Under the pieces are notes generated by a model. That model was not told the origin of the DNA. It searched no databases and worked only from the letters and a program-made list of their open reading frames with translations. A DNA stretch of 36,397 nt from Marinobacterium litorale DSM 23545 (lineage in GTDB: Bacteria > Pseudomonadota > Gammaproteobacteria > Pseudomonadales > Balneatricaceae), in contig NZ_AUAZ01000037.1 of NCBI RefSeq assembly GCF_000428985.1, positions 1-36,397 of the forward strand. The letters are read 5' to 3'. The position numbers were made by a program, and so were the translations under genes. Below, one piece after another: positions 349-27,943 of this stretch (position 1 is its first letter; every line of letters begins with the position of its first letter).

Positions 349-361
349 AATCAAGAAGTGA
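349..361 (+). promoter_or_regulatory. IHF-like site upstream of styA
   Basis: AATCAAGAAGTGA matches the IHF consensus WATCAANNNNTTR except for one base in the TTR part. IHF is known to bend the styA promoter in Pseudomonas. This site overlaps the left half of the putative PaaX operator at 359-364. Short AT-rich matches are common by chance, so this is weak. Confidence 0.3.
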
Positions 362-396
362 TACAAAGCGGGAAAGCCTCGATAAAAATCGTATCA
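359..396 (+). promoter_or_regulatory. Putative PaaX operator in the styA promoter (TGATAC-N26-GTATCA)
   Basis: TGATAC at 359-364 and its exact reverse complement GTATCA at 391-396 are separated by 26 bases. Almost the same bipartite element, with a 27-base spacer, occurs at four paa-side promoters here. From memory, PaaX of Pseudomonas sp. Y2 represses PstyA through a TGATTC-N27-GAATCA element, so PaaX is the obvious candidate. The right half ends three bases before the StyR box, so bound repressor would lie beside the activator. The operator assignment is inference. Confidence 0.65.
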
Positions 397-399
397 ATC

Positions 400-413
400 T
401 AAACCATGGTTAA
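400..413 (+). promoter_or_regulatory. StyR-binding box (sty box) of the styA promoter
   Basis: TAAACCATGGTTAA contains the perfect palindrome AACCATGGTT and is nearly identical to the StyR target known in Pseudomonas styrene promoters, which is centred near -41. With the centre at 406/407, transcription would start around 447. A TAGTCT at 437-442 is then a plausible -10, giving a leader of about 36 bases before the styA ATG at 483. Confidence 0.82.
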
Positions 414-436
414 TTGTTCCGGTATTGGGTGAAAGC

Positions 437-442
437 TAGTCT
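437..442 (+). promoter_or_regulatory. Candidate -10 element of PstyA
   Basis: TAGTCT sits where a -10 is expected for a class II activator bound at the StyR box. There is no good -35, as expected for an activator-dependent promoter. The placement is inferred from geometry, not from strong sequence match. Confidence 0.35.
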
Positions 443-482
443 GAAGTTGCTTCCAGATAACAATAAAATCGAGGTCAACTTC

Positions 483-1730
483 ATGAGTAAGCATATAGGT
501 ATCGTTGGTGCCGGCGCGGCTGGTCTGCATTTGGGGCTGTATCTGCGTCAGCACGATATCGATGTAACCATCTACACAGATCGGCGCCCTGAGGCCTATC
601 AGGATATACGTCTTCTTAACACCGTAGCGCATCACTCAGTCACTATCGCTCGCGAGAGCGACATGGATGTGAACAAGTGGCCAGTCAACGAGCACGGTTA
701 TTACGGCCACTACTACCACGTGGGTACGCCTACCCCCCTGAACTTCTACGGCGACCTGCATCAGCCAAGCCGGGCTGTCGATTATCGTATCTATCTGCCC
801 GAATTAATGAACGCCTTCACTGATAATGGCGGCAAGATCGTTTATGAACAGATCGCCGCAGAGGATATGGAGCAGCTGTCCGAGCAGTACGACCTGGTGG
901 TGGTTTGCGCCGGTAAATACGCTTTCGGCGAGATGTTTGATACCCGTGAAGATGCTTCGCCTTTCAAAACCCCTCAACGTGCATTGTGCGTTGGCCTGTT
1001 TAAAGGCATCAAAGAATCCCCCATCCGTGCGGTGACCATGTCTTTCTCGCCGGGAGCCGGTGAGCTAATTGAGATCCCGACGCTCTCCTTTGACGGAATG
1101 TGCACGGCTCTTGTACTGGAGAATCACATCGGTGGTGAGCTGGAAGTTCTGTCTACCACTCGCTATGACGACAACCCGCGAGCATTCCTGGATCTGTTGT
1201 TGGAAAAACTGCACAAACACCATCCGACGGTTGCCGAGCGAATAGATCCGGAAGAGTTCGATCTGGTTCGCGATTCTAACGACATTCTTCAGGGGCGTGT
1301 TACGCCAGTTTACCGGAAAGGTTCAGCACGACTAAGCAACGGGAAGTCCGTTGTTGCCTTGGGAGATATGCTGGCTACGGTTGATCCGGTGCTGGGACAG
1401 GGGGCCAATATGGCATCCCATGGTGCCCGAGTTCTGGGGGAAGAGATTGTCAGTAACGATGTATTCGACGACCGCTTTATCGAGCATGTGGAACGCCGGC
1501 GCGAAGATCGCACTATCTGTGCTACCCGCTGGACCAACTACATGCTGAAAAACTTGCAAGAGCTTCCGCCAGAGTTCCAGCAGTTTATCGGTACCCTCAG
1601 CCAGAGCCGTGCTATGGCCGATGAGTTTACCGATAACTTCAACTATCCGGAAAAACAGTGGGATTACTTCTCCAGCCCTGAGCGGCTTCTGGAGTGGTGT
1701 CAGAAATATGCGCAAGGCATTGCTGCATAA
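483..1730 (+). CDS. styA: Styrene monooxygenase, oxygenase subunit StyA
   Basis: Encodes a 415-residue FAD-dependent monooxygenase that converts styrene to (S)-styrene oxide using reduced FAD supplied by StyB. The Rossmann motif GAGAAG is at residues 9-14. Typical StyA stretches follow: [27 protein letters not shown], and the second FAD motif GD at about 294-295 within [15 protein letters not shown]. The length equals that of Pseudomonas StyA. The ATG at 483 is chosen over an in-frame start 69 bases upstream because the product then begins [11 protein letters not shown] as in the family and a GAGG ribosome site precedes it; the longer frame would overlap the StyR box. It is the first gene of the styrene operon; styB follows after 60 bases. 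Confidence 0.97.
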
Positions 1731-1790
1731 GTCTACTTGTGGCCGTCCAGTTACGGGCGGCCTCAATCTTTTGATTATGAGGAGTCAACT

Positions 1791-2306
1791 ATGACTGCCC
1801 AGGAATTGTCTGTATCTAAAGCTATTGATGACCAATCCTTTCGTCAGGCGGTGTCACTTTTCGCGACCGGCATCGGTGTTGTTAGCGCCGAAGAGCAGGA
1901 CGGCACTATCCATGGGATGACCGTGAACAGTTTCACATCTATAAGCCTGGACCCACCCACCATCATGGTCTCGTTAAAGCCGGGGAAAATGCACCAGCTT
2001 ATAACCGCTGGGCGTAAATTTGGAGTGAGTATTCTTGGCGAGAATCACAAAGAATACTCGGCCTATTTCAGCAAGCGTAATCTGGATGGGGCACCTGCCC
2101 CGGAGTTTACGAAAAGGTGTGAACTAGCCACGTTGAGTGATGCTATAGCATGGTTTGAGTGTGAAGTGGATCAAAACGTTGAAGTCAGTGATCACACACT
2201 GTTTATTGCCAAGGTTACTGCCTGCGGTAGAGTCGGCGAGGAGAATCATGCTCCTCTGTTGTTCTTCGCCAGCAAATATCACCATAAGCCCTGTCCGGTG
2301 ATCTGA
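1791..2306 (+). CDS. styB: Styrene monooxygenase, NADH:flavin reductase subunit StyB
   Basis: Encodes a 171-residue flavin reductase of the HpaC/StyB family (flavin reductase-like, FMN-binding split barrel). It reduces FAD with NADH and passes it to StyA. Recognisable motifs are FRQAVSLFATGIGVVSA near the N-terminus, the flavin-binding segment GMTVNSFTSISLDPP, and DHTLFIAKV near residue 140. The ATG at 1791 has an ATGAGGAG ribosome site; the in-frame extension to 1737 lacks family similarity. The gene is co-transcribed with styA. A TGATAC occurs over its stop codon but has no partner half-site at the right distance. Confidence 0.95.
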   Translation: MTAQELSVSKAIDDQSFRQAVSLFATGIGVVSAEEQDGTIHGMTVNSFTSISLDPPTIMVSLKPGKMHQLITAGRKFGVSILGENHKEYSAYFSKRNLDGAPAPEFTKRCELATLSDAIAWFECEVDQNVEVSDHTLFIAKVTACGRVGEENHAPLLFFASKYHHKPCPVI

Positions 2307-2364
2307 TACGACACGTATATAAAACCAATACTCCAATTAAATAAAATAACTACCTGGAGGTTAT

Positions 2365-2844
2365 ATGTATAACAACTTTCAAAAAGTAATGGCTGGGCAT
2401 GGAATTCTAATGATCTTTTCCACGCTGCTCTTTGGCGTGGGATTGTGGATGAATTTGGTTGGAGGGTTCGAGCTAATCCCCGGCTACATCCTGGAATTCC
2501 ATGTCCCTGGAACCCCTGAAGGTTGGGCAAAGGCACATTCTGGCCCGGCACTAAATGGAATGATGGTGATCGCCGTCGCTTTTGTACTCCCCCACCTGAA
2601 CTTTGACGAAAAAAAGGAAAAACTACTCGGGTGGATCGTTATTGCCGATGGTTGGGCAAATGTAGGCTTCTACTTCTTCTCAAACTTTACCGAAAACCGT
2701 GGCCTTACCTTTGGCGCTAATAAGTTTGGTGAGGGAGACGTATTTAGCTTCCTGGCTTTAGCTCCCGCCTATCTTTTTGGTGTCCTGGCACTATGGGCGT
2801 TACTGGTGATTGGCCTAAAAGCGGTTCGAATTAATAGTAAATAG
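2365..2844 (+). CDS. styC: Styrene oxide isomerase StyC
   Basis: Encodes a 159-residue membrane protein with about four transmembrane helices that isomerises styrene oxide to phenylacetaldehyde (Meinwald rearrangement) in the inner membrane. The sequence closely follows Pseudomonas StyC: MAGHGILMIF, FGVGLWMNLVGG, AHSGPALNGMM and ALAPAYLFGVLA. Residues described for the haem-containing enzyme are all present at the expected numbers: His58, Asn64, Asp95 and Tyr103. It is about ten residues shorter than the Pseudomonas protein, at the C-terminal tail. A strong TGGAGG ribosome site precedes the ATG. Third gene of the operon. Confidence 0.96.
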   Translation: MYNNFQKVMAGHGILMIFSTLLFGVGLWMNLVGGFELIPGYILEFHVPGTPEGWAKAHSGPALNGMMVIAVAFVLPHLNFDEKKEKLLGWIVIADGWANVGFYFFSNFTENRGLTFGANKFGEGDVFSFLALAPAYLFGVLALWALLVIGLKAVRINSK

Positions 2845-2923
2845 ATATGAATATAGCTGTAATTTAGTAGCTTTATGAAATTCTAAGATCAGTATCTCAC
2901 GATAAAAATAATAGAGAATTATT

Positions 2924-4297
2924 ATGATCAAAAATACAGTTCGATATACCTCGATCAGTATCTCTTTGCTGTTTATCTCTCAGTATGCACAGGCCACTGA
3001 AGGCTTAAGGCTGGAGGGGTATGGCCCTGTTTCCCGAGCAATGGGTGGAACAGCTATGGCTCAGGACACGGGTACAGCGAGCATCATGGGGAACCCGGCT
3101 ACAATGGCTCTGGCCCCGTTGGGCAAGCGGTTAAGTGTCGGCGCGGATATCATCACGGCAGAGATAACCAATACCGATCTTGGTAGCGGGGAGAAAGTAA
3201 GCTCCTCCCATGAAAGCCAAAACCGTCATCCCTATTTTGCACCGCAGATTGGCTATACCGACAATCGAGGAAAATGGGCCTGGGGTGTCGGCGCATTCGC
3301 GCTAGGAGGCTTGGGCACCGAATACGGGGATAAAAGCTTTCTGTCGGATGGTAGCAGCGGAAATCCCACCGAGTTGGAAAATAGCAGCCGGCTGTTTGTG
3401 CTCGATATTCCGCTTGCGTTGAGCTATCGGATTAATGATCGCCTGGCTTTCGGAGCCACCGTCGACGCCGTGTGGAGTGGCATGAACCTGAACATGCTTC
3501 TGGGTGCCAATCAGGTTGGCTCCCTGGTAGCAGAGGGGCGTGTAGGAGGTGGCTTGATGCCTACTTTGGGCGGCCTACCTGCTCTGGATGGGGCTCACCT
3601 CAGTTTTACCAAAGATAAGCCTTTAAGCAGCGGAGCCGATGCCTGGGGTGTCAGCGGCCGTATAGGCTTGATATGGCAAGCGACACCAACGACTGTCGTA
3701 GGTGCCGCCTATAACCTCGGTACAAAGCTCAATGATCTTAAAGGCAAGGCAAGGCTAACGGCCTCAGATGCAGTGCTGGGTAATATTCCTTTGGATGGGT
3801 CAATCCGTATTAAGGATTTCCAGATGCCGGCGTCATTAACGGCTGGCATTACCCACAAAGTGAATGATCGCTGGCGTATCTCGGCTGATCTATCCCGGGT
3901 GTTCTGGAACGATGTGCTAAAAGATATCGATGTTTCCTTCACGAGTGCCGGTGGCGGAGATCTGAATATATCGCTTCCTCAAAACTACAAGGATCAAACG
4001 ATTATTGCGCTCGGCACCAGTTATGACATCGGTAACTGGACACTGAGAGCCGGCTATCGCCAGGGTACGGAGGTTGTACCCAGTGAAAATCTGTTCGTTA
4101 CTTTGCCAGTAACTCCGACGCGGATCGCCTCCATGGGCTTTAGCTATCGCATTGCCAAGAGTGGCCAAATCGATTTTGCGTACTCACATAATTTTGAAAT
4201 TGAACGTACCAATGGTGCGAGCACAAATACGGGAAACCCGGTGCGCAATAAAGAATCACAAAATAACTTTGTGATTGGTTATACAGCTAGATTCTGA
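2924..4297 (+). CDS. FadL/TodX-family outer-membrane hydrocarbon channel
   Basis: Encodes a 457-residue beta-barrel protein of the FadL/OmpP1/TodX family, which moves hydrophobic substrates across the outer membrane. A signal peptide covers about residues 1-24 (hydrophobic ISISLLFIS, cleavage after AQA). The mature start has the family features SRAMGGTAMAQDTGTASIMGNPA, with the conserved NPA motif. Many alternating amphipathic strands follow, and the protein ends in Phe, as outer-membrane barrels do. The position inside the styrene operon points to styrene uptake, analogous to TodX in toluene clusters; this role is inferred. It is not similar to the short membrane protein called StyE in some Pseudomonas clusters as far as I recall, so no symbol is given. 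Confidence 0.9.
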   Translation: MIKNTVRYTSISISLLFISQYAQATEGLRLEGYGPVSRAMGGTAMAQDTGTASIMGNPATMALAPLGKRLSVGADIITAEITNTDLGSGEKVSSSHESQNRHPYFAPQIGYTDNRGKWAWGVGAFALGGLGTEYGDKSFLSDGSSGNPTELENSSRLFVLDIPLALSYRINDRLAFGATVDAVWSGMNLNMLLGANQVGSLVAEGRVGGGLMPTLGGLPALDGAHLSFTKDKPLSSGADAWGVSGRIGLIWQATPTTVVGAAYNLGTKLNDLKGKARLTASDAVLGNIPLDGSIRIKDFQMPASLTAGITHKVNDRWRISADLSRVFWNDVLKDIDVSFTSAGGGDLNISLPQNYKDQTIIALGTSYDIGNWTLRAGYRQGTEVVPSENLFVTLPVTPTRIASMGFSYRIAKSGQIDFAYSHNFEIERTNGASTNTGNPVRNKESQNNFVIGYTARF

Positions 4298-4306
4298 GGG
4301 TGTGCG

Positions 4307-4618
4307 ATGAAAAAGCTAATGGTTTTATATCCTGAACCAGAGAATAGAAGTTCATTTTTAGAATATTACCGAGTAGAGCACCTGCCGATGGTTAAAAAAC
4401 TCCCAGGTTTGGTGTCGGCAGCTTTTAGCGTCACGGAAGAAGAGGGAAGCCCCTACTTCGTATTCTTTGAAGCGGTGTTTGAGAATATTGACGCCCTGCA
4501 CCGGGCCATGTCGTCTGCAACCGGCGAAGCCTTAGCTCAGGATGTGCCTAACTTCTCTCCGCAGGGGGCGGTAATAGTAACTGCGGATCTCGAAGTAATT
4601 AAGCCGGAGCAGGCTTAA
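4307..4618 (+). CDS. EthD-family small protein in the styrene operon
   Basis: Encodes 103 residues forming one ferredoxin-like dimeric alpha/beta-barrel (EthD) domain: MKKLMVLYPEP, then EYYRVEHLPMVKKLPGLVSA, where family members have the conserved YxxxHxPLxxxxPG pattern. EthD proteins are found beside several hydrocarbon-oxidation operons, and in ETBE degradation EthD is required, but their chemistry is mostly unknown. The gene starts nine bases after the fadL-like stop, so the two are translationally close. A role in handling styrene oxide or phenylacetaldehyde, or in protecting an enzyme, is only a guess. It is not part of the standard styABCD set. Confidence 0.8.
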   Translation: MKKLMVLYPEPENRSSFLEYYRVEHLPMVKKLPGLVSAAFSVTEEEGSPYFVFFEAVFENIDALHRAMSSATGEALAQDVPNFSPQGAVIVTADLEVIKPEQA

Positions 4619-4670
4619 CGAGGCGGGTTGTGACTTAAACATAGAGCCGAATTTAATACTGGAGAGTAAC

Positions 4671-6089
4671 ATGCAATATGAACCTTACCTCACGATTGCA
4701 GGTGAAAAATGTTCCGGTGAAGCGGCCCCGATTAAGGTGGTCGATCCCGCTAACGGAGAAGTGTTCGCGGTCTGTCCGGGGGCTTCTTTTTCTCAACTAA
4801 ATCAAGCTGTTGATGCCGCCGGTCGAGCTTTCCAAAAGTGGAAACGCAGTTCCGATCAAGACGTCAAAGCGTTGCTGCATCTGATTGCAGGTCGAATTGA
4901 AGCACATACCGATGAGCTGGCTGAAATTATCGTCAGAGAGCAGGGTAAGCCATTAGCCATGGCACAGCTTGAGGTGGGGGCTGCTGTTGGATGGACACGT
5001 TACACCGCAGAACTCGAGCTTCCGGTAAAAGTGATAGAGGATAGCGATACCCGGCTTGCGGAGCTGCATCGTAAGCCCTTGGGTGTTGTGGGCTCCATCA
5101 CACCTTGGAACTGGCCCCTTATGATCGCGGTCTGGCATATCATGCCGGCACTGCGCTCCTTCAATACGGTGGTTATTAAACCCGCGTCGTTAACGCCACT
5201 CAATACATTGAAATTGGTCGAAATCATTAATGAGGTTCTGCCTGCCGGCGTCGTGAATTGTGTTACCGGTGATGCCGAAATTGGCAGTGCGATGAGTTCC
5301 CATCCGGACATCGCTAAGCTGGTCTTCACAGGGTCCACGCCAACGGGCCAGAGCATCATGCGCAACGCTGCGGGTAACCTCAAACGACTCACCCTGGAGC
5401 TGGGCGGTAACGATGCAGGTATTGTGCTTGAGGATGCCGATATTGATCAGATCGCACCAGCTATCTTCCAAGGCGCATTTCTTAATATGGGGCAGACCTG
5501 TGCAGCGCTGAAGAGGTTGTACGTTCATGATTCGATGTACGATGCATTGGTACAGCGTCTGGTAGAGCTGGCGCAGCAGCAGGTTCTAGGCAGCGGTTTG
5601 GACTCCAGTGTGACTTTTGGTCCTGTGCAGAATAAGAAACAGCTTGAGTTTGTATCTGAACTGGTGGCCGATGCAAAAGCACAGGGTGCGAATATCCTCT
5701 GTGGCGGTGAGCCGTTGCCGCGGGAAGGCTACTTTTATCCGCCTACCATTGTTGCAGAGGTATCTGATGGAACAAGACTGGTAGATGAAGAACAGTTCGG
5801 CCCTGTCTTGCCGGTGATTCGATACAGCAGTGTGGATGAAGTGATCCAGCGGGCTAACGACAATGTGAACGGACTGGGTGGGTCTGTTTGGGGACGGGAT
5901 TTAGAGCAGGCCCGAAAAGTGGCGCAGCAGCTTGAGTGTGGCACTGTATGGATTAATAACCATGCTGAGGTTTTACCTCACTGTCCCTTCGGAGGCTGTA
6001 AAATGTCCGGTATTGGCGTGGAGTTCGGGGAAGAAGGACTTCTCGAATATACAACCGCACAACTTGTCAGTGTTAACCGAATAGGGTGA
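4671..6089 (+). CDS. NAD(P)-dependent aldehyde dehydrogenase, probable phenylacetaldehyde dehydrogenase
   Basis: Encodes a 472-residue aldehyde dehydrogenase. Catalytic residues are all visible: Asn147 in TPWNWP, Lys170, Glu243 in LELGG and Cys277 in NMGQTCAALKRLYV. As the last gene before the operon terminator it fills the StyD position, oxidising phenylacetaldehyde to phenylacetate. Its motifs differ from classical StyD/FeaB proteins, which are about 30 residues longer and carry a different catalytic-loop sequence. It therefore seems to come from another aldehyde dehydrogenase subfamily (AldA-like). Function is assigned by context and residues; the exact substrate is not proven. A GGAGAG ribosome site precedes the ATG. 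Confidence 0.85.
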   Translation: MQYEPYLTIAGEKCSGEAAPIKVVDPANGEVFAVCPGASFSQLNQAVDAAGRAFQKWKRSSDQDVKALLHLIAGRIEAHTDELAEIIVREQGKPLAMAQLEVGAAVGWTRYTAELELPVKVIEDSDTRLAELHRKPLGVVGSITPWNWPLMIAVWHIMPALRSFNTVVIKPASLTPLNTLKLVEIINEVLPAGVVNCVTGDAEIGSAMSSHPDIAKLVFTGSTPTGQSIMRNAAGNLKRLTLELGGNDAGIVLEDADIDQIAPAIFQGAFLNMGQTCAALKRLYVHDSMYDALVQRLVELAQQQVLGSGLDSSVTFGPVQNKKQLEFVSELVADAKAQGANILCGGEPLPREGYFYPPTIVAEVSDGTRLVDEEQFGPVLPVIRYSSVDEVIQRANDNVNGLGGSVWGRDLEQARKVAQQLECGTVWINNHAEVLPHCPFGGCKMSGIGVEFGEEGLLEYTTAQLVSVNRIG

Positions 6090-6214: not shown

Positions 6215-9160
6215 ATGAAGAAAAATATTTATAGAATAATAAATAATATATTTAAAGGTATTGGTAAATTTAGAATCGGAAGCGTCTCTTTAAATGAGGT
6301 AGATGAGTATCAAACCCAGAGAGAGAAGTTTGCTCGTATTATTCTAGATCAGATGTACCATTTTGCCGGTTTGTTGGATGCGGATGGAAATATTCTTGAA
6401 ATAAACCTCCCTGCACTCAGGGGGGCCGGTCTTGGCATGGATGATGTGCTGGGAATTCCTTTTTGGGAGGCTCGATGGTTTGCACTGTCTGATGAGAGTA
6501 AGGCGCTACAGCGCTCGCTTGTCAGGCGCGCGGCATCGGGAGAATTTATTCGTCGTGATATAGAGGTCTACGGGGAGGCGAGTGGTGAGAAAACCATAAT
6601 TACAGACTATTCGCTATCCCCTATACGAGATGAAGATGGAGTTGTCAGGTTTATTCTCGCAGAAGGGCGAAATATCACAGAGAAGAAGAAAATTGAGATA
6701 GAAGTAGAAAGAAAAAATAGTGAGCTAAAAGAGCTGCTTAATAAAAATAGACAGCTTGATGAACAGAAGAATAAATTCTTCGCAAATATAAGTCATGAAC
6801 TAAGAACACCCCTGTCTCTTATAATAGGTCCTGTGGATGATATGCTCGAGGATTTGGAGAGTATATCGGCGAGAGATAAATCAAATCTTTCCGTTATTCG
6901 CCGTAACGCGGTAACTATGCTGACATTGGTGAATGAGCTCTTGGATCTAGCGAAAATTGATGCAGGTAAGGTTCAGCTTTTTTATGAGAAAATAAGACTG
7001 TCGCAGTTTATTCAAGATATTGCTTCCCACTTCGAGATGATCGCCCACCAGAATAATATAAGTTTCGCAGTGATGGTGCCCGACGAGTTGGAGATTGAAG
7101 CGGATAGAGAGAGGCTCAGTCGGATAGTCTTTAACCTAATTTCAAACGCTTTTAGTGTGACGCCAAGAGGCGGGCGGATCAGTTGTACCGTTGAAAGCAT
7201 CGAAAGTGAGAAGATTCTTATCCATGTTAAGGATACCGGACCCGGCATCGATAGTGATCAAATAGCTAAAATCTTTAAGCGGTTTGAACAGGGCGATGGT
7301 TTGTTACAAAGCTCCAGAAAGGGGAGTGGCTTAGGTTTAGCGATCGTTAAAGAGTTCGTGGATCTGCATAACGGTACTGTGACGGTCACAAACTCCTCGG
7401 TGGGAGGAGCGATCTTTATGATCGAGTTGCCCGAGAAGGCGCCGGCGGGAGCAGGGGTAAGTAGGGACCGTAAAGTAATTTATCACGATGCAGAAATACT
7501 CGTTGCGGGAGTGGTTGATAGTCCTTCTGACCCGGACTTGGGTGGCAGTTATGATAGGGCCTCAGTTCTGGTTGTGGACGACAACTATGAGATGAGAGAG
7601 CTGATTAAGAGAATCCTTGGGCAAACCTATCACGTGATAACTGTTCCTGATGCTGAAGAAGCCTTGGCAGCAATGGAGCGTTACCAGCCGGACCTGATTA
7701 TCACAGATCTGATGATGCCGAATATCAGTGGGGATCAATTAATCAGAAAAATACGAGAAAAGGTAGATACGGCTCAGATACCGATTCTTGTTCTATCGGC
7801 ACGTGCTGATGAAGGTATCAAGAACGAATTGCTGTCGAGGTATGTACAGGACTATGTGACCAAGCCGTTTTCGGTTCCCGAGCTGGTTTCCAGGGTACGC
7901 AACCTGATAATGATGAGAGAAGCCAAGCAGGCACTTCAAAAAGAGTTGGAGACTCATAACACCGACTTAATGTATCTCACCAGAGAGGTAATAGATGGTC
8001 GGCGAGCGCTCAGGGCCAGTGTCGATGCACTCCAGAAATCGGAGAGTCATTGGCGAGCTATATATGAAAATTCAGCAGTCGGTATAGCCGTAGTCAATCC
8101 CGCATGGGCTTTCGTGAAGGTGAATCCGGCTTTTTGTCGGATGTTGGGTTTCACGGCGGAGGAGCTTTTGGGCAGGTCAGTCATTGAGTTCACGCACCCG
8201 GCGGACAAGGAGTCAACTGGCGAGCGACTCACGCGGTTGATTAGAGGAGAGTTGGAAGGGTATCACTATCAAAAGCGGTTTATTAATCGGCAGGGGACTG
8301 AGATTTGGACCAGCTCCAGTGTTACGGTGATTCCAGAGACCGAAGACTCGCCGCCTTTGTTACTGGGTATTGTCGAAGACATAAGCGCTAGTAAGCAGGC
8401 TGAGCTCGAGCTTGAGGAAGCCAGGATTGAGTTGGCGAGGGTGATGCGTGTTACCTCCATGGGTGAATTGGTGGCTTCAATTACCCACGAAATAAATCAG
8501 CCTCTTTCGGCCATAGTGTCTAACAGTCAGGCCGCGCTTAAATGGCTTTCTCATGAGCCACCCGACTATATCGAAGCTAATAATGCTATCAATAATATTC
8601 TCCGTGATGGTAAAAGAGCTGCGGAAGTGGCGATACGGATTCGCGGATTTATGAAGCGCGATCAGAAGTATATTGAACAAGTCGACTGGTCTGTGTTGAT
8701 ATCAGAAGTTCTGGACTTTGTGAATGAAACCCTCTGGAAAATTGGCATAGAAGTTCAGGCTAATGTGCCCGCCGACCTTCCGGACTTGTACAGCGATAAA
8801 GTCCAACTGCAACAGGTCTTACTGAATTTGGTGCTTAATGCCATCGATGCTATGCGAGATCCTGAGCTTACCGAAAGACTCCTGCAGATAGATGTGCACT
8901 ACGCTGAGGATATTGATCACGTGGTCGTGCGAATATCGGACTCGGGAAAGGGAATTGATGCCGATGTAGAAGATAAGCTTTTTGAGCCCTTTTGCACGAC
9001 CAAGGAAAATGGTCTTGGAATGGGCCTTTCAATATGCAGGTCTACAATATCTCGCCTAGGAGGTGAACTGAAACTGCTTGATAATAAGTCGACTGAAAAA
9101 GGCTGCTCGTTTCAGTTCAGTATTCCAACACTAGAGAATAAAAATAATGCAGAAGGGTGA
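6215..9160 (+). CDS. styS: Styrene sensor hybrid histidine kinase StyS
   Basis: Encodes a 981-residue soluble hybrid kinase with the order PAS (about 45-155), a short coiled segment, histidine kinase 1 (phospho-acceptor His194 in FFANISHELRTP, ATP-binding DTGPG and GSGLGLA around 340-376), receiver (about 450-560, Asp498, Lys550), PAS (about 605-730) and histidine kinase 2 (His758 in SITHEINQP, ATPase to the C-terminus). Length and order match Pseudomonas StyS and TodS-like sensors. No transmembrane segment is evident. It senses styrene and phosphorylates StyR. The first 80 bases are very A+T-rich. The 3' end overlaps styR by 14 bases. Here styS and styR follow the catabolic genes, whereas in Pseudomonas they precede styA. 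Confidence 0.95.
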   Translation: MKKNIYRIINNIFKGIGKFRIGSVSLNEVDEYQTQREKFARIILDQMYHFAGLLDADGNILEINLPALRGAGLGMDDVLGIPFWEARWFALSDESKALQRSLVRRAASGEFIRRDIEVYGEASGEKTIITDYSLSPIRDEDGVVRFILAEGRNITEKKKIEIEVERKNSELKELLNKNRQLDEQKNKFFANISHELRTPLSLIIGPVDDMLEDLESISARDKSNLSVIRRNAVTMLTLVNELLDLAKIDAGKVQLFYEKIRLSQFIQDIASHFEMIAHQNNISFAVMVPDELEIEADRERLSRIVFNLISNAFSVTPRGGRISCTVESIESEKILIHVKDTGPGIDSDQIAKIFKRFEQGDGLLQSSRKGSGLGLAIVKEFVDLHNGTVTVTNSSVGGAIFMIELPEKAPAGAGVSRDRKVIYHDAEILVAGVVDSPSDPDLGGSYDRASVLVVDDNYEMRELIKRILGQTYHVITVPDAEEALAAMERYQPDLIITDLMMPNISGDQLIRKIREKVDTAQIPILVLSARADEGIKNELLSRYVQDYVTKPFSVPELVSRVRNLIMMREAKQALQKELETHNTDLMYLTREVIDGRRALRASVDALQKSESHWRAIYENSAVGIAVVNPAWAFVKVNPAFCRMLGFTAEELLGRSVIEFTHPADKESTGERLTRLIRGELEGYHYQKRFINRQGTEIWTSSSVTVIPETEDSPPLLLGIVEDISASKQAELELEEARIELARVMRVTSMGELVASITHEINQPLSAIVSNSQAALKWLSHEPPDYIEANNAINNILRDGKRAAEVAIRIRGFMKRDQKYIEQVDWSVLISEVLDFVNETLWKIGIEVQANVPADLPDLYSDKVQLQQVLLNLVLNAIDAMRDPELTERLLQIDVHYAEDIDHVVVRISDSGKGIDADVEDKLFEPFCTTKENGLGMGLSICRSTISRLGGELKLLDNKSTEKGCSFQFSIPTLENKNNAEG

Positions 9161-13485: not shown

Positions 13486-13547
13486 AGAACTCTACTCGTT
13501 ATCGTTATTATGTGCTGTCCGACAGAGCGCCGGTGACATTGGTCCGG

Positions 13548-14063: not shown

Positions 14064-14136
14064 CTGAAGTTACCTTTACTTCGTCTTGGAGGTGACAGCC
14101 GCAGAGAGCTGCGGCTGTGTCTGGCTGTCCCTGTGC

Positions 14137-17331: not shown

Positions 17332-17358
17332 AACTGAAAACCTCTTGAATCGTTCGCG

Positions 17359-18432: not shown

Positions 18433-18457
18433 GATCTTCTCTCTTTTCTTGTCTTTA

Positions 18458-19051: not shown

Positions 19052-19076
19052 GGTTGCACCTCAAGTGATCAAAGGG

Positions 19077-19838: not shown

Positions 19839-19850
19839 CGTCAGGCTCCC

Positions 19851-20132: not shown

Positions 20133-20152
20133 TGTTCAATTCCTCTTATTAT

Positions 20153-21145: not shown

Positions 21146-21201
21146 GGCTGACTCCTGTTGTTATGTATTGCTCTGTCAATGCGCCAGATCAATATTTAGT
21201 C

Positions 21202-21230
21202 ATTATATGATACTTAATAGTAAAGTAAAT
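21202..21230 (-). promoter_or_regulatory. Promoter of paaABCDE-paaZ
   Basis: On the minus strand a perfect TATAAT (21202-21207) stands 17 bases downstream of ATTTAC (21225-21230). The -10 touches the inner operator half-site. The leader to paaA is about 50 bases. Confidence 0.65.
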
Positions 21231-21246
21231 ATTATTTTGCGTATCA
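21208..21246 (-). promoter_or_regulatory. Putative PaaX operator at the paaA promoter (TGATAC-N27-GTATCA)
   Basis: A perfect inverted pair of six-base half-sites separated by 27 bases, the best match in the window. It straddles the -35 and abuts the -10 of the paaA promoter. Assignment to PaaX is by recurrence at paa promoters and by resemblance to the known PaaX element. Confidence 0.72.
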
Positions 21247-21251
21247 TATCT

Positions 21252-21288
21252 GGGCGTGCCTTGAACGATCCGGCACGCCCTTGTTTTT
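21252..21288 (+). terminator. Strong hairpin between paaK and the paaA promoter, T-tract on the plus strand
   Basis: GGGCGTGCC and GGCACGCCC form a perfect nine-base-pair stem with an 11-base loop. On the plus strand TTGTTTTT follows, which makes an intrinsic terminator pointing into the antisense side of paaK. In the paaK transcript (minus strand) the same hairpin has no U-tract and would act as a 3' stem, not a clear terminator. Confidence 0.6.
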
Positions 21289-21295
21289 GGGTGGA

Positions 21296-22627
21296 TTATT
21301 GCGGCGGGCGGTTATCGATAACGTGCTTCGCCTTGCCTTCGGAACGGGGCAGAGAGCCCGGCGCACCGACACGGACCTGGGTGCTGATGCCGATGCTGGA
21401 CTTGATATGATGCATCAGCTCTTTGGCAACCCGCTGCTCGCCGTCACTGCCGATGCCGGAGGCATCCGGCTTGAGCTCCACCTGCACCTCCATGTGATCC
21501 ATATGGCCTTTGCGGCTCAGGATCAGCTGGTAGTGTGGTGCCAGCTCGGAGACACGGAGCAGCTGCTCCTCGATCTGGGTCGGGAAGACGTTAACGCCAC
21601 GGATGATCAGCATGTCGTCGCTGCGGCCGGTGATCTTGTCGATGCGGCGCATGGGGCGGGCCGTGCCGGGCAGCAGGCGGGTCAGGTCGCGGGTGCGGTA
21701 GCGGATGATCGGCAGTGCTTCCTTGGAGAGCGACGTGAACACCAGTTCGCCATATTCGCCGTCGGGCAGGACTTCACCGGTAGCCGGATCGATGATCTCC
21801 GGGTAGAAGTGGTCTTCCCAGATGGTAGGACCATCCTTTGAATCGATGCACTCCATGCCTACACCCGGGCCCATGACCTCGGAGAGGCCGTAGATATCCA
21901 TGGCGTCGATCCCCAGGCGCTGTTCCAGCTCCGTACGCATGGTGCCGGTCCAGGGCTCGGCGCCAAACACGCCAAGGCGCAGCTTGAGCTCGTGGGGATC
22001 CAGCCCCTGGCGCTCCATCTCGTCGGCGATATTGAGCATGTAGGAGGGGGTCACCATGATCACATCGGGGTTAAAGTCGCGCAGCAGTTGGACCTGCTTT
22101 TCGGTCTGTCCGCCCGACATGGGAATCACGGTGCAGCCCAGGCGTTCGGCACCGTAGTGAGCACCCAGGCCACCGGTGAACAGGCCGTAGCCGTAGGCGA
22201 CATGGACCAGGTCACCGGCATGGGCACCGGCAGCGCGCAGCGATCGAGCGACCACATCGGCCCAGGTGTCGATATCTTTCTGGGTGTAACCCACAACGGT
22301 GGGCTTGCCGGTGGTGCCGCTGGAGGCGTGGATACGGACAATCTCCTCCATGGGGACGGCAAACATGTTGAACGGATAATTGTCCCGCAGATCGTTCTTC
22401 ATGGTGAACGGGAACCTGGCCAGGTCGTCCAGTGATTTCAGGTCACTGGGATGGACGCCGGCTTCATCGAACGCCTTGCGGTAAAAGTCCACGTTATTGT
22501 AGGCGTGGGCCAGGCTCCAGCGCATGCGCTGGAGCTGAGTGTTACGGAGCTCGTCGATGCTTGCGGTTTCGATCGGGTCGAGCAGGTTTTTGGAATGAGT
22601 CGCAGTGGCGGTTGCTGTGCTGTTCAT
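21296..22627 (-). CDS. paaK: Phenylacetate-CoA ligase PaaK
   Basis: Encodes a 443-residue adenylate-forming enzyme that activates phenylacetate with ATP and CoA in the cytoplasm, the entry step of the pathway. The P-loop-like motif SSGTTGKPT is at residues 102-110. Other family motifs are DIYGLSEVMGPGVG, YRTRDLT and GRSDDMLIIRGVNVFPTQIE. Its product is the effector that releases PaaX. An AGGAAGAG ribosome site precedes the ATG. A gap of 75 bases to paaJ contains a short hairpin (AGCCCC/GGGGCT at 22664-22682). Confidence 0.97.
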   Translation of the reverse strand: MNSTATATATHSKNLLDPIETASIDELRNTQLQRMRWSLAHAYNNVDFYRKAFDEAGVHPSDLKSLDDLARFPFTMKNDLRDNYPFNMFAVPMEEIVRIHASSGTTGKPTVVGYTQKDIDTWADVVARSLRAAGAHAGDLVHVAYGYGLFTGGLGAHYGAERLGCTVIPMSGGQTEKQVQLLRDFNPDVIMVTPSYMLNIADEMERQGLDPHELKLRLGVFGAEPWTGTMRTELEQRLGIDAMDIYGLSEVMGPGVGMECIDSKDGPTIWEDHFYPEIIDPATGEVLPDGEYGELVFTSLSKEALPIIRYRTRDLTRLLPGTARPMRRIDKITGRSDDMLIIRGVNVFPTQIEEQLLRVSELAPHYQLILSRKGHMDHMEVQVELKPDASGIGSDGEQRVAKELMHHIKSSIGISTQVRVGAPGSLPRSEGKAKHVIDNRPPQ

Positions 22628-22702
22628 TGGTACTCTTCCTGTTACTTATTCTTATTTATCGCGGAGCCCCTGTTGGCGGGGCTGCTAGCCGTGATCAAGC
22701 CG

Positions 22703-23908
22703 TCAGAGACGCTCGATCACCATGGCGATGCCCTGGCCTACACCGATACACATGGTACACAAAGCATAGCGGCCCTGGCGGTTTTCCAGTTCATTCAAAG
22801 CGGTGGTCACCAAGCGAGCACCGCTGGCACCCAGCGGATGGCCCAGTGAGATGGCACCGCCATTGGGGTTTACGTGCTCGGCATCATCCGGCAGGCCCAG
22901 GTCGCGCATCACGGCCAGTCCCTGAGCGGCAAAGGCTTCGTTCAGCTCGATCACATCCATCTGCTCCAGGCTCAGACCGGTCTGGGCCAGCACCTTGCGA
23001 ACGGCCGGTGCCGGGCCAAAGCCCATGATGCGCGGCGGAACACCGGCGGTGGCCATGCCGACCACGCGCGCGCGGGCTTTAAGTCCGTAACGCTCGGCGG
23101 TTTCCTGGTTGCTCAGCAGTAGGGCGCAGGCACCGTCGTTAACGCCGGATGCATTACCGGCAGTGACGCTGCCGTTTTCACGGAACGGGGTCGGCAGTTT
23201 TGCCAGCGCTTCCAGTGTGGTGGATGGGCGAGGGTGTTCGTCGGTATCCACAACCACGGGATCGCCCTTACGTTGTGGGATGGTGACCGGGGTGATCTCC
23301 TGCTTGAAACGGCCTTTTTCCAGCGCGGCACCGGTGCGCTGCTGGCTGCGCAGGGCAAAGGCATCCTGGTCGGCACGGGAGATATTGAAGTCGGCGGCCA
23401 CGTTCTCGGCGGTTTCCGGCATGGAATCGATGCCAAACTCGGCTTTCATCTGCTTGTTGACGAAACGCCAGCCGATGGTGGTGTCGAAAATTTCGGCTTT
23501 GCGGCTGAACGGCGTCTCGGCCTTGCCCATCACGAAGGGCGCACGAGACATGGACTCCACGCCACCGGCCAGCATCAGACCGGTTTCACCGGATTTGATG
23601 GCACGAGCGGCGATGCCGATGGCATCCATACCCGAGCCACACAGGCGGTTGACGGTGGTACCCGGAACCTCCGTAGAAAGGCCCGCCAGCAGTGCCGACA
23701 TCCGCGCCACGTTGCGGTTATCCTCACCGGCCTGGTTGGCGCAACCGTAGATGATGTCATCCACCTTGGACCAGTCCAGCCCTGGGTTACGCTCCATCAG
23801 GGCCTTAAGGGGAATCGCGCCCAGGTCGTCCGCCCGCACGGGGGCCAGAGCTCCACCGTAGCGGCCGAACGGTGTGCGGATCGCATCAATAATCAGCGCA
23901 TCGTTCAT
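22703..23908 (-). CDS. paaJ: 3-oxoadipyl-CoA / 3-oxo-5,6-dehydrosuberyl-CoA thiolase PaaJ
   Basis: Encodes a 401-residue thiolase. The nucleophilic Cys90 lies in [14 protein letters not shown]; the C-terminal motifs [11 protein letters not shown] (His) and [10 protein letters not shown] (Cys) complete the active site. It performs two thiolytic steps in the phenylacetyl-CoA pathway, releasing acetyl-CoA and succinyl-CoA. Its ATG overlaps the paaI stop by four bases, indicating coupled translation. A general PcaF role in the beta-ketoadipate pathway is possible, but the paa context favours PaaJ. Confidence 0.95.
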
Positions 23909-24390
23909 TGGTTGTTCTCCTGTGTTGAACTCTCGCCGGAGCCGTCCTGTTCAATGAGGATTCCCCGCGTCTGGTAGGACTTGCCGCGGAACAGGGCGAC
24001 GAGTTGGCCTTTCTGGTTTTCGATCCGGATGTCGTAAACACCGGTACGCCCGCCGCGGGACTCTTCTTTTGCAGTGGCGGTGAGCAGGTCACCCAGCTTG
24101 CCGGGGGCGACATAGTCGATGGTGCAGCCCTGGGCCACGGTGATGGCGTTATAGGTGTTGCAGGCATAGGCGAACGCCGAGTCTGCAAGGGTAAAGATGT
24201 AGCCGCCGTGGCAGCTGTCGTGACCCTGGATCATCGGTTCGGTGACGGTCATGGTCAGCGTCGCTTCACCGGGCGCCACGCGCTCAATCTTGATCGGTAG
24301 CGAGCGTACAGCAGTGTCGCGGCTGTACATGGCGTCAGCACACGCTTCCGCCAGCTGCTGCGGGCTCAGGTTCGAGATCTGTTCAGTCAT
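23905..24390 (-). CDS. paaI: Phenylacetyl-CoA pathway thioesterase PaaI
   Basis: Encodes a 161-residue hotdog-fold thioesterase. The helix motif CHGGYIFTLADSAFAYACN with the catalytic Asp is clear, as is the N-terminal LAEACADAMYSRD. PaaI hydrolyses ring-hydroxylated phenylacetyl-CoA compounds and frees CoA when the pathway stalls. The ATG at 24390 gives MTEQISNLSP; a longer in-frame start would lie deep inside paaH. It overlaps paaH by eight bases and paaJ by four. Confidence 0.94.
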   Translation of the reverse strand: MTEQISNLSPQQLAEACADAMYSRDTAVRSLPIKIERVAPGEATLTMTVTEPMIQGHDSCHGGYIFTLADSAFAYACNTYNAITVAQGCTIDYVAPGKLGDLLTATAKEESRGGRTGVYDIRIENQKGQLVALFRGKSYQTRGILIEQDGSGESSTQENNQ

Positions 24391-25906
24391 GGAAACGCTC
24401 TCCGGCGAAGACTTTCTGGCGCAGCAGGCGGGAGGGGCGATAGCGCTCCTCGCCATAGCTTTGCTGCAGGTTAATCAGGGTTTTATGAATTGCATCCAGG
24501 CCGACCGTCTCGGCCCAGGCCAGCGGGCCGCGGGGATAATTAACACCGAACAGCATGGCGCGGTCGGCATCACCTGCGTTGCAGACACTCTGCATCACCG
24601 CGTCGGAGGCTTCGTTGGCGAGCATGGCGACGGTACGCATAACCGCCAGGCCCGGGACATCGTCGAGGCGAGTCAGGGCGATACCGGACTGGTCGAACAG
24701 CGCCGTTACCGTGGCCAGCTCATCAGCGCTCACCCGTTGATCGTGGGCGATGGCCAGGCGGGTGCACTGGCTGTAGTCCACGGCCAGGTCCAGCAGTACC
24801 AGACGGTCGATGCCATCCTGGCTTGCCCGTTCGGTGGCCATGCGGCCATCGGTCAACGCCAGTGTGCAGCTGCCCACGCGCATCAAGCCGCGCCCTTCAC
24901 GCTCAACCACCTGAGTACCGTTACCGCGCAGGCGTTCAACCAAGGCACCCAGCACACCCAGGTCACCTTCCACGGTGATGGTGGCAGGTGCGCTGGCGTT
25001 GTCGTCATCCAATGTGGCGGGGGCTGTCTTCTCGGCACCTTCGCGATAATCGTAGAAACCCTGGCCCGATTTGCGTCCCAGACGACCGGCTTCCACCAGT
25101 GCCTGTTGTGTCAGGGAGGGTAGAAAACGGGTGTCGCCGTAGTAGGCGTTAAACACCGAGCAGGTCACGGCATAGTTCACGTCATGTCCGATCAGGTCCA
25201 TCAGCTCGAACGGCCCCATGCGAAAGCCACCGGCTTCGCGCATCAGCGCATCGACAGTGGCGTGATCGGCGGCACCCTCTTCAAGCAGGCGTAAGCCTTC
25301 CGCATAGAAGGGGCGGGCCAGGCGGTTGACGATAAAGCCGGGAGTCGACTTGGCGTGCACCGCTTTCTTACCCCAGTCGGTGGCGAGCTGGTGCAGGGTA
25401 CGAGCGACCTGTGGATCGGTTTCCAGACCCGAAACCACCTCGACCAGCTTCATGATCGGTGCCGGGTTGAAAAAGTGCAGGCCGGCCAGGTTTTCGGGGC
25501 GCTTCAGTGCGGCACCAATCGAGGTGATGGAGATCGAAGAGGTATTAGAGGCAAGCAGGGTATCCGGCTTACAGATCGATTCCAGCTGGGTAAACAGGCT
25601 GCGCTTGATCTCCAGGCTTTCAACAATTGCCTCGATAACCAGGTCCGCATCGGCCAGTTCGTCCAGTTCATTCACCGGGCGCATGCGCGCGATAATCCCG
25701 TCGCGGGTCTCGGCATCGATCTTGCCCCGGCTCACCAGCTTCTCCAGCCCTTTGGCGGTGTTGGTGATACCCTTTTCGGCAGCGCCTTCGGCATTGTCAT
25801 AGACCAGTACCGTATGGCCGGCGGTGGCTGCCACCTGGGCAATACCGGCACCCATGGCACCGGCACCGATGACGGCGATCACGGACTGGGTGTCAAATGT
25901 TTTCAT
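24383..25906 (-). CDS. paaH: 3-hydroxyadipyl-CoA dehydrogenase PaaH
   Basis: Encodes a 507-residue NAD-dependent 3-hydroxyacyl-CoA dehydrogenase. The N-terminal Rossmann motif is VIGAGAMGAGIAQVAATAGH; the catalytic region has NPAPIMKLVEVVSG and the first C-terminal domain GFIVNRLARPFY. A second, diverged C-terminal domain covers the last 120 residues (NYPRGPLAWAETVG), typical of the long PaaH type. The ATG at 25906, with a GGGAGG ribosome site, is preferred over a TTG one codon upstream. The paaG-paaH gap is 11 bases. Confidence 0.95.
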   Translation of the reverse strand: MKTFDTQSVIAVIGAGAMGAGIAQVAATAGHTVLVYDNAEGAAEKGITNTAKGLEKLVSRGKIDAETRDGIIARMRPVNELDELADADLVIEAIVESLEIKRSLFTQLESICKPDTLLASNTSSISITSIGAALKRPENLAGLHFFNPAPIMKLVEVVSGLETDPQVARTLHQLATDWGKKAVHAKSTPGFIVNRLARPFYAEGLRLLEEGAADHATVDALMREAGGFRMGPFELMDLIGHDVNYAVTCSVFNAYYGDTRFLPSLTQQALVEAGRLGRKSGQGFYDYREGAEKTAPATLDDDNASAPATITVEGDLGVLGALVERLRGNGTQVVEREGRGLMRVGSCTLALTDGRMATERASQDGIDRLVLLDLAVDYSQCTRLAIAHDQRVSADELATVTALFDQSGIALTRLDDVPGLAVMRTVAMLANEASDAVMQSVCNAGDADRAMLFGVNYPRGPLAWAETVGLDAIHKTLINLQQSYGEERYRPSRLLRQKVFAGERFHD

Positions 25907-25917
25907 CAACGCCTCCC

Positions 25918-26709
25918 TTACTGGCCGGTGAAGTTGGGCTTGCGCTTTTCCATGAACGCGGCGACACCTTCGCGGTAGTCGTCCGTGCGGCCGGCCAGGC
26001 GCTGGAGATCGCGCTCCAGATCGAGCTGTTCATCCAGCGTATTGGTGGTGCTGGCGTTCAGGGCACGTTTAATCAGCGCCAGGCCGCGGGTGGGCTGAGT
26101 GGCCAGGTTGCGGGCGCAGCTCAGCGCTTCATCCATCAGTTGGTCGTCATCGACACAGGACCAGATCATGCCCCATTGGGCGGCCTGCTCGGCGCTGATC
26201 TTGTCCCCCAGCATGGAAAGCGCCATGGCGCGTGCGTGACCGACCAGTCGGGGCAGGTTCCAGGTGCCACCGGAATCCGGTACCAGGCCGATCTTGCAGA
26301 AAGCCTGAATGAAGCTGGCGGAGCGGGCAGCAAATACGATGTCACAGGCCAGGGCGATATTGGCGCCGGCACCGGCGGCCACGCCGTTGACGGCGCAGAT
26401 CACCGGCAGCGGCAGGTCTCGCAGGGTGCGGATCATAGGGTTGTAGAACTTCTCGATGGAGGCGCCCAGGTCCGGCATTTCGGCATCGGCGGCCACATTG
26501 CGGTCGGACAGGTCCTGGCCTGCGCAGAAGCCGCGGCCATTGCCGGTGATCAGCAGACAGCGCACGCTGCCATCTTTACGCACCTGTTTCAGCGCTTCAC
26601 GCATTTCGGCGTGCATCTCGGCATTGAAACTGTTGAGGCTGTTGGGGCGATTCAGGGTCAGGATGGCAACACCTTCATCGACCCGATATTCAATGTGCTC
26701 GAAAGCCAT
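25918..26709 (-). CDS. paaG: Epoxyphenylacetyl-CoA isomerase PaaG
   Basis: Encodes a 263-residue crotonase-family protein. The oxyanion-hole segments are GNGRGFCAGQDLSDRN and VNGVAAGAGANIAL; the position occupied by Glu in hydratases is Asp in LVPDSGGTWNLPRL, as in PaaG. It converts the ring epoxide to the oxepin form. The ATG at 26709 has an AAGGAG ribosome site and matches the family start; a TTG six codons upstream is less likely. Follows paaF by 60 bases. Confidence 0.95.
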   Translation of the reverse strand: MAFEHIEYRVDEGVAILTLNRPNSLNSFNAEMHAEMREALKQVRKDGSVRCLLITGNGRGFCAGQDLSDRNVAADAEMPDLGASIEKFYNPMIRTLRDLPLPVICAVNGVAAGAGANIALACDIVFAARSASFIQAFCKIGLVPDSGGTWNLPRLVGHARAMALSMLGDKISAEQAAQWGMIWSCVDDDQLMDEALSCARNLATQPTRGLALIKRALNASTTNTLDEQLDLERDLQRLAGRTDDYREGVAAFMEKRKPNFTGQ

Positions 26710-26769
26710 GACTGGCAGCTCCTTCAATGTACGCGGATAAGACAGGGATCTGTCGGAAGCAAAAGGGGA

Positions 26770-27543
26770 TCAGCGCCCCTTGTACTCCGGACGGCGTTTC
26801 TCGATGAATGCGCGAATACCCTCGTTACGATCCTCGGTGGCTGCCAGCATTGTGAACGCTTTGCGCTCATAGCTGAGGCCCGCTGCGAGGTGCGTTTCCT
26901 GAGAGCGCAGCAACACATCTTTGGCCTGCTGGACCGCCAGCGGCGCCTGTTTGGCGATCTGGTCAGCGACCTGCAGGGCGCGTTCAAGGGTGAGTTCGGG
27001 TTCGGTCAGCTCGGAAACCAGGCCGGCGTCGCAGGCGCGTTCAGCGCTGATCGGCTCACCGGTGAGGACCATTTGGGTCGCCAGGGACTTGCCGACTGCG
27101 CGGATCAGTCGCTGGGTACCGCCGGCACCGGGAATAATGCCCAGCTTGATCTCCGGTTGTCCGAAGCGGGCATCGCGTCCGGCGATGACAATGTCGGCAT
27201 GCATCACGAGCTCACAACCACCACCCAGGGCAAAGCCGTTAACGGCCGCAACAATCGGTTTGGGAAAGGCGGCGATACGGCTCCAGCGCTGCGGACGCGG
27301 ATCGCTCATGACCCCGACCATGTCCAGGTCGGCCATTTCGCGAATATCGGCACCGGCGGCGAAGGCACGGCTGTCACCGCTGATGACAACAGCGCGCACG
27401 GCATCATCCGTGGCGGCGGCATCAAGAGTGTCGGCCAGTTCGCCCAGCAGCGCCGTATTGAGGGCATTCAGCGCCTCGGGGCGATGTAACTGGATACGCA
27501 AGACGCCGTTGGGGAGCGTCTCGGTCAGAAGATAGTTCAGCAT
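26770..27543 (-). CDS. paaF: 2,3-dehydroadipyl-CoA hydratase PaaF
   Basis: Encodes a 257-residue enoyl-CoA hydratase. Both catalytic Glu residues are visible, in ALGGGCELVMHADI and FGQPEIKLGIIPGAGGTQRL. The ending RRPEYKGR is typical of PaaF. It hydrates 2,3-dehydroadipyl-CoA in the lower part of the pathway. The ATG at 27543 gives MLNYLL; a GTG three codons upstream is an alternative. It is the first gene of the paaFGHIJK unit. A short stem (AAGGGG/CCCCTT, 26763-26781) overlaps its stop codon and could weaken read-through. Confidence 0.94.
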   Translation of the reverse strand: MLNYLLTETLPNGVLRIQLHRPEALNALNTALLGELADTLDAAATDDAVRAVVISGDSRAFAAGADIREMADLDMVGVMSDPRPQRWSRIAAFPKPIVAAVNGFALGGGCELVMHADIVIAGRDARFGQPEIKLGIIPGAGGTQRLIRAVGKSLATQMVLTGEPISAERACDAGLVSELTEPELTLERALQVADQIAKQAPLAVQQAKDVLLRSQETHLAAGLSYERKAFTMLAATEDRNEGIRAFIEKRRPEYKGR

Positions 27544-27665
27544 AGTTATCACTTAATTATTGTTGTTCTGTCTTTCTTCGGGTGATCCTCCGTATCGGGC
27601 TCAGCGCACGGCTGTGCCTACTACGGGGTCGGCCTCATTATTGATCTAAAGCTTAGCGCCTAATG

Positions 27666-27704
27666 TGATACATGAAAATACTAAAATTGATAAAATTTGT
27701 GTCT
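27666..27704 (-). promoter_or_regulatory. Putative PaaX operator upstream of paaF (AGACAC-N27-GTATCA)
   Basis: On the minus strand AGACAC and GTATCA are separated by exactly 27 bases. The downstream half is perfect, the upstream half has one extra mismatch. A CATTAG follows the inner half-site in the position where paaA and dctP have TATAAT, so the -10 is poorer here. The leader to paaF would be about 110 bases. Confidence 0.6.
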
Positions 27705-27904
27705 TAATGTTTGGTTTTTTATATCCATTGATCTCTTTGAAAGCGGTGTGTGAAGATGTTTTTAGCCCGGTGCAGGTACGATTTAAGTGCGTTTAAGTTG
27801 CTATAAGTCATTGTTTTATAGTAATTAATGGGGATCGGGTACGCGGATTTGGTCAGGCGATCATTGCGTGTCCGGAAAGAGGGCGTTGGCGGGATCTTTG
27901 TTTG

Positions 27905-27943
27905 TGACACTTATTATTTCTTTGACATTAAAAAAGTGTGTTA
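27905..27943 (+). promoter_or_regulatory. Putative PaaX operator upstream of paaN (TGACAC-N27-GTGTTA)
   Basis: The half-sites keep the 27-base spacing, now on the plus strand. It straddles the -35 TTGACA and ends one base before the -10, as at the minus-strand promoters. The right half has two departures from GTATCA. Confidence 0.55.

Follow-up and report, generated by a model that had tools for sequence, protein, structure and literature searches.

The contig analysed in the present work (36,397 nucleotides, all of which we refer to as the window; C34 in our genome set) belongs to the 4.38 Mb genome of Marinobacterium litorale DSM 23545, and carries genes for the degradation of styrene and of phenylacetate side by side. 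It holds styABC, styS-styR, a split Mutator-type transposase, the repressor gene paaX, dctMQP, paaZ-E-D-C-(B)-A (bracketed because paaB fell below our gene length cut), paaK-J-I-H-G-F and the divergent paaN-paaY (Table 1). An initial annotation of this DNA had pointed to five inverted repeats, before styA, dctP, paaA, paaF and paaN, and had read them as PaaX operators. Our re-scan found all five at exactly the positions given there, and their location, the statistics of the motif, its conservation and spacing preference and its association with the presence of PaaX lead us to predict, with a probability of roughly 0.8, that the PaaX encoded in the cluster itself uses them as operators, by the mechanism proposed below.

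The window PaaX passes the equivalog model TIGR02277 with 305.5 bits against a curated cutoff of 264.55, and contains the Pfam domains PF07848, PF20803 and PF08223. The closest relatives that we found for it are also from Marinobacterium (M. zhoushanense, 84%; M. ramblicola and M. lacunae, 83% each), and three genomes of the genus have the identical paa-dctPQM-paaX order, but without sty genes.

According to the initial annotation, TGATAC-N27-GTATCA marks four paa promoters. The four positions stand, but among the N27 sites that of paaA alone is perfect, those of dctP, paaF and paaN being mismatched, and the dctP site lies in the promoter of a TRAP transporter operon of which paaX is the last gene. 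Perfect TGATAC/GTATCA pairs at N24 to N30 occur twice in the window against 0.03 expected (one of 100 shuffles reaches two), and at N26 or N27 they are found in just two places in the whole genome, before styA and paaA. The genome scan that had been suggested with the initial annotation, TGAYAC-N26/27-GTRTCA, returned five places, three of which are the dctP, paaA and styA sites; the other two lie outside the window, are both N26 and fall inside reading frames of 441 and 72 residues. At N27 this pattern is confined to dctP and paaA, both in this cluster, and over N20 to N34 it occurs in 15 places, 12 of them outside the window. With one mismatch allowed, the strict N27 pattern gives five outside places besides dctP, and with up to three mismatches it gives 1554 places in the genome compared with 501 for a control pattern, a background so high that the paaF and paaN sites cannot be told from it by their half-sites alone. 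These two sites stand out through their flanking bases and position.

A weight model comprising the half-sites plus four outer and seven inner flanking bases was derived from 70 sites in 43 genomes, with the window genus excluded, and was run over 2.316 Mb at N26-N28. Its top five matches in the window are exactly the five claimed sites (35.5, 32.8, 32.1, 20.7 and 20.5), and the next match scores 14.1. Scores of at least 20 inside and outside promoter windows (191 kb and 2.12 Mb respectively) numbered 82 and 8 for N27, 37 and 3 for N28, and 11 and 2 for N26; some of the N26 matches may be sites of an adjacent spacing read out of register. When the promoters were dinucleotide-shuffled, the observed best score was reached once in 20000 for styA, and never for dctP (0/20000), paaA (0/20000) or the paaF-paaN region (0/6000). 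Sites corresponding to those of dctP, paaA and paaF are present in the same-genus genomes G001, G005 and G006. No model match of at least 13 was found in the alphaproteobacterial PaaX clusters of Paracoccus, Pseudosulfitobacter, Shinella and Marinibacterium.

The same preference for spacing emerged from 66 PaaX regions (from 26 of 26 other PaaX-bearing relatives, 25 of 47 and 8 of 18 further ones, six named records and the window), in which the scan covered 128.8 kb of DNA preceding paa genes, dctP and styA and allowed any base at position 5 of the half-site. Half-site pairs numbered 53 at N27, 34 at N28 and 7 at N26, and counts for the remaining spacings between 12 and 45 ranged from 1 to 11, with a control mean of 5.4; the 87 pairs at N27 and N28 compare with approximately 11 expected by chance. 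At least one N27 or N28 pair in which each fifth position was A or T was present in 47 of the 66 regions, and the 19 without a pair at this threshold include Pseudomonas VLB120, though its sites score 29.5 and 25.6. A stricter pattern, with A/T flanks and N27 or N28, was tested in 57 relatives and was found in 20 of the 27 that have PaaX and in 4 of the 30 that do not (Fisher p 3.7e-6), compared with 1/27 and 2/30 for a control pattern. One of the exceptions, G004, is a PaaX-negative member of the same genus with a site that looks real, and since this assembly is only 87% complete its paaX may be missing from it. The pile-up at two spacings, the model ranking and the co-occurrence with PaaX thus make it very likely that elements of this kind are the PaaX operator. 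Further similar N27 sites were seen in same-genus genomes at L041 17232-17270 (G005), G001:C30:14065-14103 and G006:C28:28670-28708, that in G005 lying 57 bp upstream of a di-iron oxygenase-like gene (weak PF00268/PF11583 matches, below cutoffs); the strict pattern found no counterpart of these in the window's own genome.

Several observations weigh against this assignment. When whole regions (27 of them) rather than promoters are scanned, the pile-up nearly disappears (N27 74, N28 62, others 29-70), and as the 66 regions were chosen for holding paaX, the pile-up is by itself no proof of dependence on PaaX. The genomes are related and do not count as independent samples, which makes the Fisher p value optimistic; 7 of the 27 PaaX-positive genomes lack the stricter pattern, and its matches were seen in their genomic context mainly within the fetched regions. 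N26, the spacing at styA, is unenriched in the promoters of relatives (7 against the control 5.4), the G+C content of the styA spacer, 42%, is that of the controls and not the 24% (S.D. 12%) of operators, and the left half of this site scores only 8.2. At paaN the half-sites have three mismatches, and in G005 and G006 the left one is even weaker, TGTTAC; conservation of this site may stem from the promoter alone.

Table 1. Predicted PaaX operators and other features of the window
Feature	Positions	Strand	Sequence or basis
Predicted PaaX-type operator, styA	359..396	+	TGATAC-N26-GTATCA, perfect; model score 20.5, fifth best in window
Predicted PaaX operator, dctPQM-paaX	15234..15272	-	TGATAC-N27-GTGTCA; towards dctP TGACAC-N27-GTATCA; 1 mismatch; TATAAT abuts; score 32.8
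Predicted PaaX operator, paaA operon	21208..21246	-	TGATAC-N27-GTATCA, perfect; TATAAT abuts; score 35.5, best in window
Predicted PaaX operator, paaF operon	27666..27704	-	TGATAC-N27-GTGTCT; towards paaF AGACAC-N27-GTATCA; 2 mismatches; score 32.1
Predicted weak PaaX operator, paaN-paaY	27905..27943	+	TGACAC-N27-GTGTTA over TTGACA-N17-TAGCAT; 3 mismatches; score 20.7
StyR (STY2-type) box	399..414	.	CTAAACCATGGTTAAT, presumed extent; 2 bp from styA operator; core AACCATGGTT at 402-411
Group II intron, 3' end	1..338	+	Rfam RF00029 at 267-338; ends 20 bp before styA operator
styA, styB, styC, FadL-like gene, EthD-like gene, styD-like dehydrogenase	483..6089	+	StyA, StyB, StyC and EthD by NCBIfam; FadL-like and styD are our labels
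styS-styR two-component system	6215..9761	+	Domain matches; against VLB120, StyS 55%, StyR 54%
Split Mutator-type transposase, between styR and paaX	9834..11038	-	PF00872 on both reading frames
paaX repressor, last gene after dctPQM	11109..12041	-	TIGR02277 and three PaaX Pfam domains
dctM, dctQ, dctP, TRAP transporter	12157..15156	-	DctP by NCBIfam; dctM and dctQ are our labels
paaF-G-H-I-J-K and paaA-(B)-C-D-E-Z, downstream of the 27666 and 21208 sites	15286..27543	-	Names match annotated VLB120 genes
paaN-paaY	28028..30314	+	Names match annotated VLB120 genes
MarR-like gene beside the cluster	30489-30917		Domain match

The initial annotation had also placed the -35 in the middle of the spacer and the -10 directly after the inner half-site at all four N27 promoters, and this arrangement was borne out at dctP, paaA and paaN; at paaF we could see by eye no clear -10 in this place. 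Directly after the inner half-site of paaA and dctP comes a TATAAT, with a -35-like hexamer (TAGACT or TTTACT) in the spacer, and at paaN the -10 starts one base past the site, in a promoter that is conserved in the genus while the half-sites weaken. The operator thus overlaps the core promoter at dctP, paaA and paaN; the styA site lies outside any sigma-70-like promoter. In a wider set of 99 oriented operators, 11 have their best -10-like hexamer beginning where the operator ends, and 34 have it five bases inside the operator, a placing in which the TATCA of the half-site itself scores as -10-like; the abutting geometry is not general across this set.

With respect to known systems, the operator is of a known kind. 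The E. coli PaaX operators (Pa, Pz and Px; reviewed in PMC9493321) are likewise inverted half-site pairs, in our comparison at N26-N28, that lie at paa promoters and belong to a repressor of the same family (NCBIfam equivalog). According to the review, PaaX represses the paaX promoter, hinders RNA polymerase sterically at Px and is released by phenylacetyl-CoA. The window differs in having A at position 5, and in its operon layout, with paaX placed after dctPQM. The paa operators of the VLB120 plasmid pSTY (L089) share with the window the N27 spacing, the position-5 A and a paaF site ending in GTGTCT, but their half-sites start with C (CGATAC, CGACAC). The paaX promoters of relatives have N27 (G012, G018, G026) or N28 (G013, G014, G027, G028), and those of Klebsiella and E. 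coli have N26 (a perfect TGATTC-N26-GAATCA and TGATTC-N26-GAATCG respectively), which brings the N26 at styA within the range of PaaX-type operators. In both L169 and L091 the enterobacterial N26 TGATTC pair (15959-15996) ends just before paaX.

The styA element deserves separate treatment. The promoter that it adjoins is recognizable as a styrene promoter from the StyR box upstream of styA and the presence of styS-styR, and we take this box, CTAAACCATGGTTAAT, to be 16 bases long; its core AACCATGGTT is common to the styA promoters of the window, VLB120 and G595, and no second copy of AACCATGGTT was found in L153. In Pseudomonas fluorescens ST, PMC2442086 places STY2 about -40 from the start site, and STY1 with an IHF (integration host factor) site at -110 to -75. 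By this comparison transcription of styA in the window would start near 448, which would place the operator at roughly -90 to -53. The operator hence occupies about the same place relative to STY2 as the Upstream Regulatory Element (STY1 plus IHF) of P. fluorescens ST (PMC2442086), the difference being that the window has a PaaX-type operator there and that a group II intron cuts off the part further upstream. No sigma-70-like promoter was found in 300-500. The PaaX site of Pseudomonas sp. Y2 reportedly lies just inside styA, whereas the predicted one of the window lies upstream of the StyR box, and a model scan (score of at least 10, N26-N28) found no site at the Y2-type position, 359-396 being the sole one near styA. 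In the literature searched, which lacked most subscription papers including the original Y2 work, we found no PaaX site placed upstream of the StyR box at styA.

The contig starts inside a multicopy group II intron, whose last 39 bases (300-338) match six other places in the genome, four of them identical and two at 95-97%, so that the sty block is bounded by this intron on one side and by the Mutator/IS256-type transposase, which is split into two overlapping frames (9834-11038), on the other. Compared with the styA promoter of G595 (StyA 77%), clear homology runs downstream from 398 and ends at the operator; that the operator sits at the joint of sty homology is suggestive, from this one close comparator. 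For the origin of 339-398 there was no convincing plasmid match (best E about 1), and in the genome itself none beyond base 342. StyA was not found in any of seven other same-genus genomes searched, and at E up to 1e-60 it was found in 2/390 genomes of the order (the window's included), 1/13 of the genus of G595 and 2/116 of the family. M. litorale is already known to have a styrene monooxygenase (PMC8001364). We also noted that L155 (G789) holds a same-family styA (67%), which is interrupted by a single internal TAA and preceded by a different palindrome, TAAACTAATGTTTA-like, and that there is in the merged region of G731 (6346) a StyC-like match (70%) next to paa genes, with no styA match within the region.

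Could the styA repeat be a coincidence, or the site of another protein, with the dctP, paaA, paaF (and paaN) elements as PaaX operators and StyR alone controlling the styrene operon? The spacing and base composition at styA already noted favour this, as do the two N26 TGAYAC pairs elsewhere in the genome, both in reading frames, the lack of overlap with a sigma-70-like promoter, and the three sty promoters compared (G595, G789 and VLB120), which have no model match at styA (in VLB120, none of at least 12 nearby). Against it, the half-sites are perfect and lie within a 144 bp promoter region (339-482), 20000 shuffles of which yielded no perfect N26-N28 pair and one that reached the model score; N26 is known at enterobacterial paaX promoters; and for PstyA of Pseudomonas sp. 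Y2 repression by PaaX is on record (cited in PMC2442086). We consider coincidence unlikely, and the styA element is probably a PaaX operator as well.

The initial annotation had further proposed that the half-site was changed at its fourth and fifth positions and that repressor and operator had drifted together. Only the fifth position differs (T in TGATTC, A in TGATAC). T is indeed found in E. coli (paaA TGATTC-N27-GAATCG) and Klebsiella (paaA TGATTC-N27-GAATCA), and the review gives TGATTC(N27)GAATCA for E. coli PaaX and calls Pseudomonas Y2 'similar' (PMC9493321). However, in the best N27/N28 pairs of the 66 regions 71 of the 78 half-sites carry A at position 5, compared with 10/18 at control spacings, and at the next threshold 146/174 do so, compared with 105/302. 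The A-type spelling TGATAC is usual in relatives of the same GTDB order, and A is seen too in five class-level genomes (G073, G130, G201, G222, G257), in an Acinetobacter among the named records, and in VLB120 (paaA CGACAC-N27-GTATCG; paaF CGATAC-N27-GTGTCT). In seven genomes (G022, G023, G420, G496, G523, G769 and Halomonas PA16-9) a plausible T-bearing site stands, in our reading, beside A-bearing ones. We did not find TGATAC together with PaaX in the literature searched, which left out most subscription papers.

The repressor gives a similar picture. Residues R63, R66, T67 and R71 of the recognition segment are identical in E. coli and the window and are kept across 63 aligned rows except G059, in which R63 and T67 differ. 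The window PaaX resembles its relatives in the recognition helix. E. coli shares S68A with genomes that carry A-type sites. G61, F64 and L69, which lie next to R63, R66 and R71, are found in E. coli alone among the 63 rows; these are candidates for the T preference of E. coli, on a single lineage. There is thus no sign of recent joint drift, and the position-5 statistics, the E. coli and Klebsiella sites and the conservation of the helix led us to reject as highly improbable the idea that repressor and operator left a TGATTC ancestor together in this strain. The window PaaX also has a one-residue insertion, residue 75, between recognition helix and wing, which is common to the window genus, G009, G011, G024, M. 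rhizophilum and M. sedimentorum and absent from the other aligned rows.

That another paa-linked regulator binds these sites, either the MarR-like protein whose gene adjoins the cluster or a TetR-type PaaR, which controls paa genes in other groups (PMC9493321), is scarcely credible, since the pattern tracks the presence of PaaX, the site equals the published PaaX site except at one position per half (PMC9493321), and for the MarR-like protein, which we rejected, tblastn kept no match (E up to 1e-15 / 1e-12, with coverage filters) in the other 65 regions although 47 of the 66 carry the site.

In the mechanism favoured here, PaaX without inducer would occupy the two half-sites (consensus TGATAC), the centres of which are 32-34 bp apart, or approximately three helical turns. 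At dctP, paaA and probably paaN, with the -35 between the half-sites and the -10 directly after them, bound PaaX would exclude RNA polymerase, and phenylacetyl-CoA would release it. As paaX follows dctPQM, the dctP site would autoregulate paaX: if transcription from the dctP promoter extends into paaX, which the gene order suggests, PaaX would limit its own synthesis. At styA, PaaX abutting the StyR box would keep StyR off the promoter, and likewise IHF, if IHF uses this region as in P. fluorescens ST. In that case the styrene operon would be fully expressed only when styrene (through StyS/StyR) and phenylacetyl-CoA are both present. A similar coupling of upper and lower pathways, with PaaX and StyR both acting on the styrene promoter, is known for PstyA of Y2 (PMC2442086) and is predicted for the window.

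The styrene operon was probably acquired later than the paa switch. More tentatively, and with less than even confidence, we propose that it was captured into the resident PaaX regulon: it would have landed beside paaX, and an N26 operator would have arisen or joined where sty homology stops, replacing the old upstream element, so that PaaX would act there as an anti-activator that blocks StyR rather than as an excluder of polymerase, forming an AND gate of styrene and phenylacetyl-CoA.

These data describe the PaaX operator of the relatives in Marinobacterium, Pseudomonas and Halomonas (TGATAC at N27 or N28), unlike the reviewed E. coli form. If true, the styA site ties the styrene operon to an old phenylacetate switch, and the locus would be a compact natural case of how an acquired catabolic operon may be wired to a resident repressor through a site set against the activator box.

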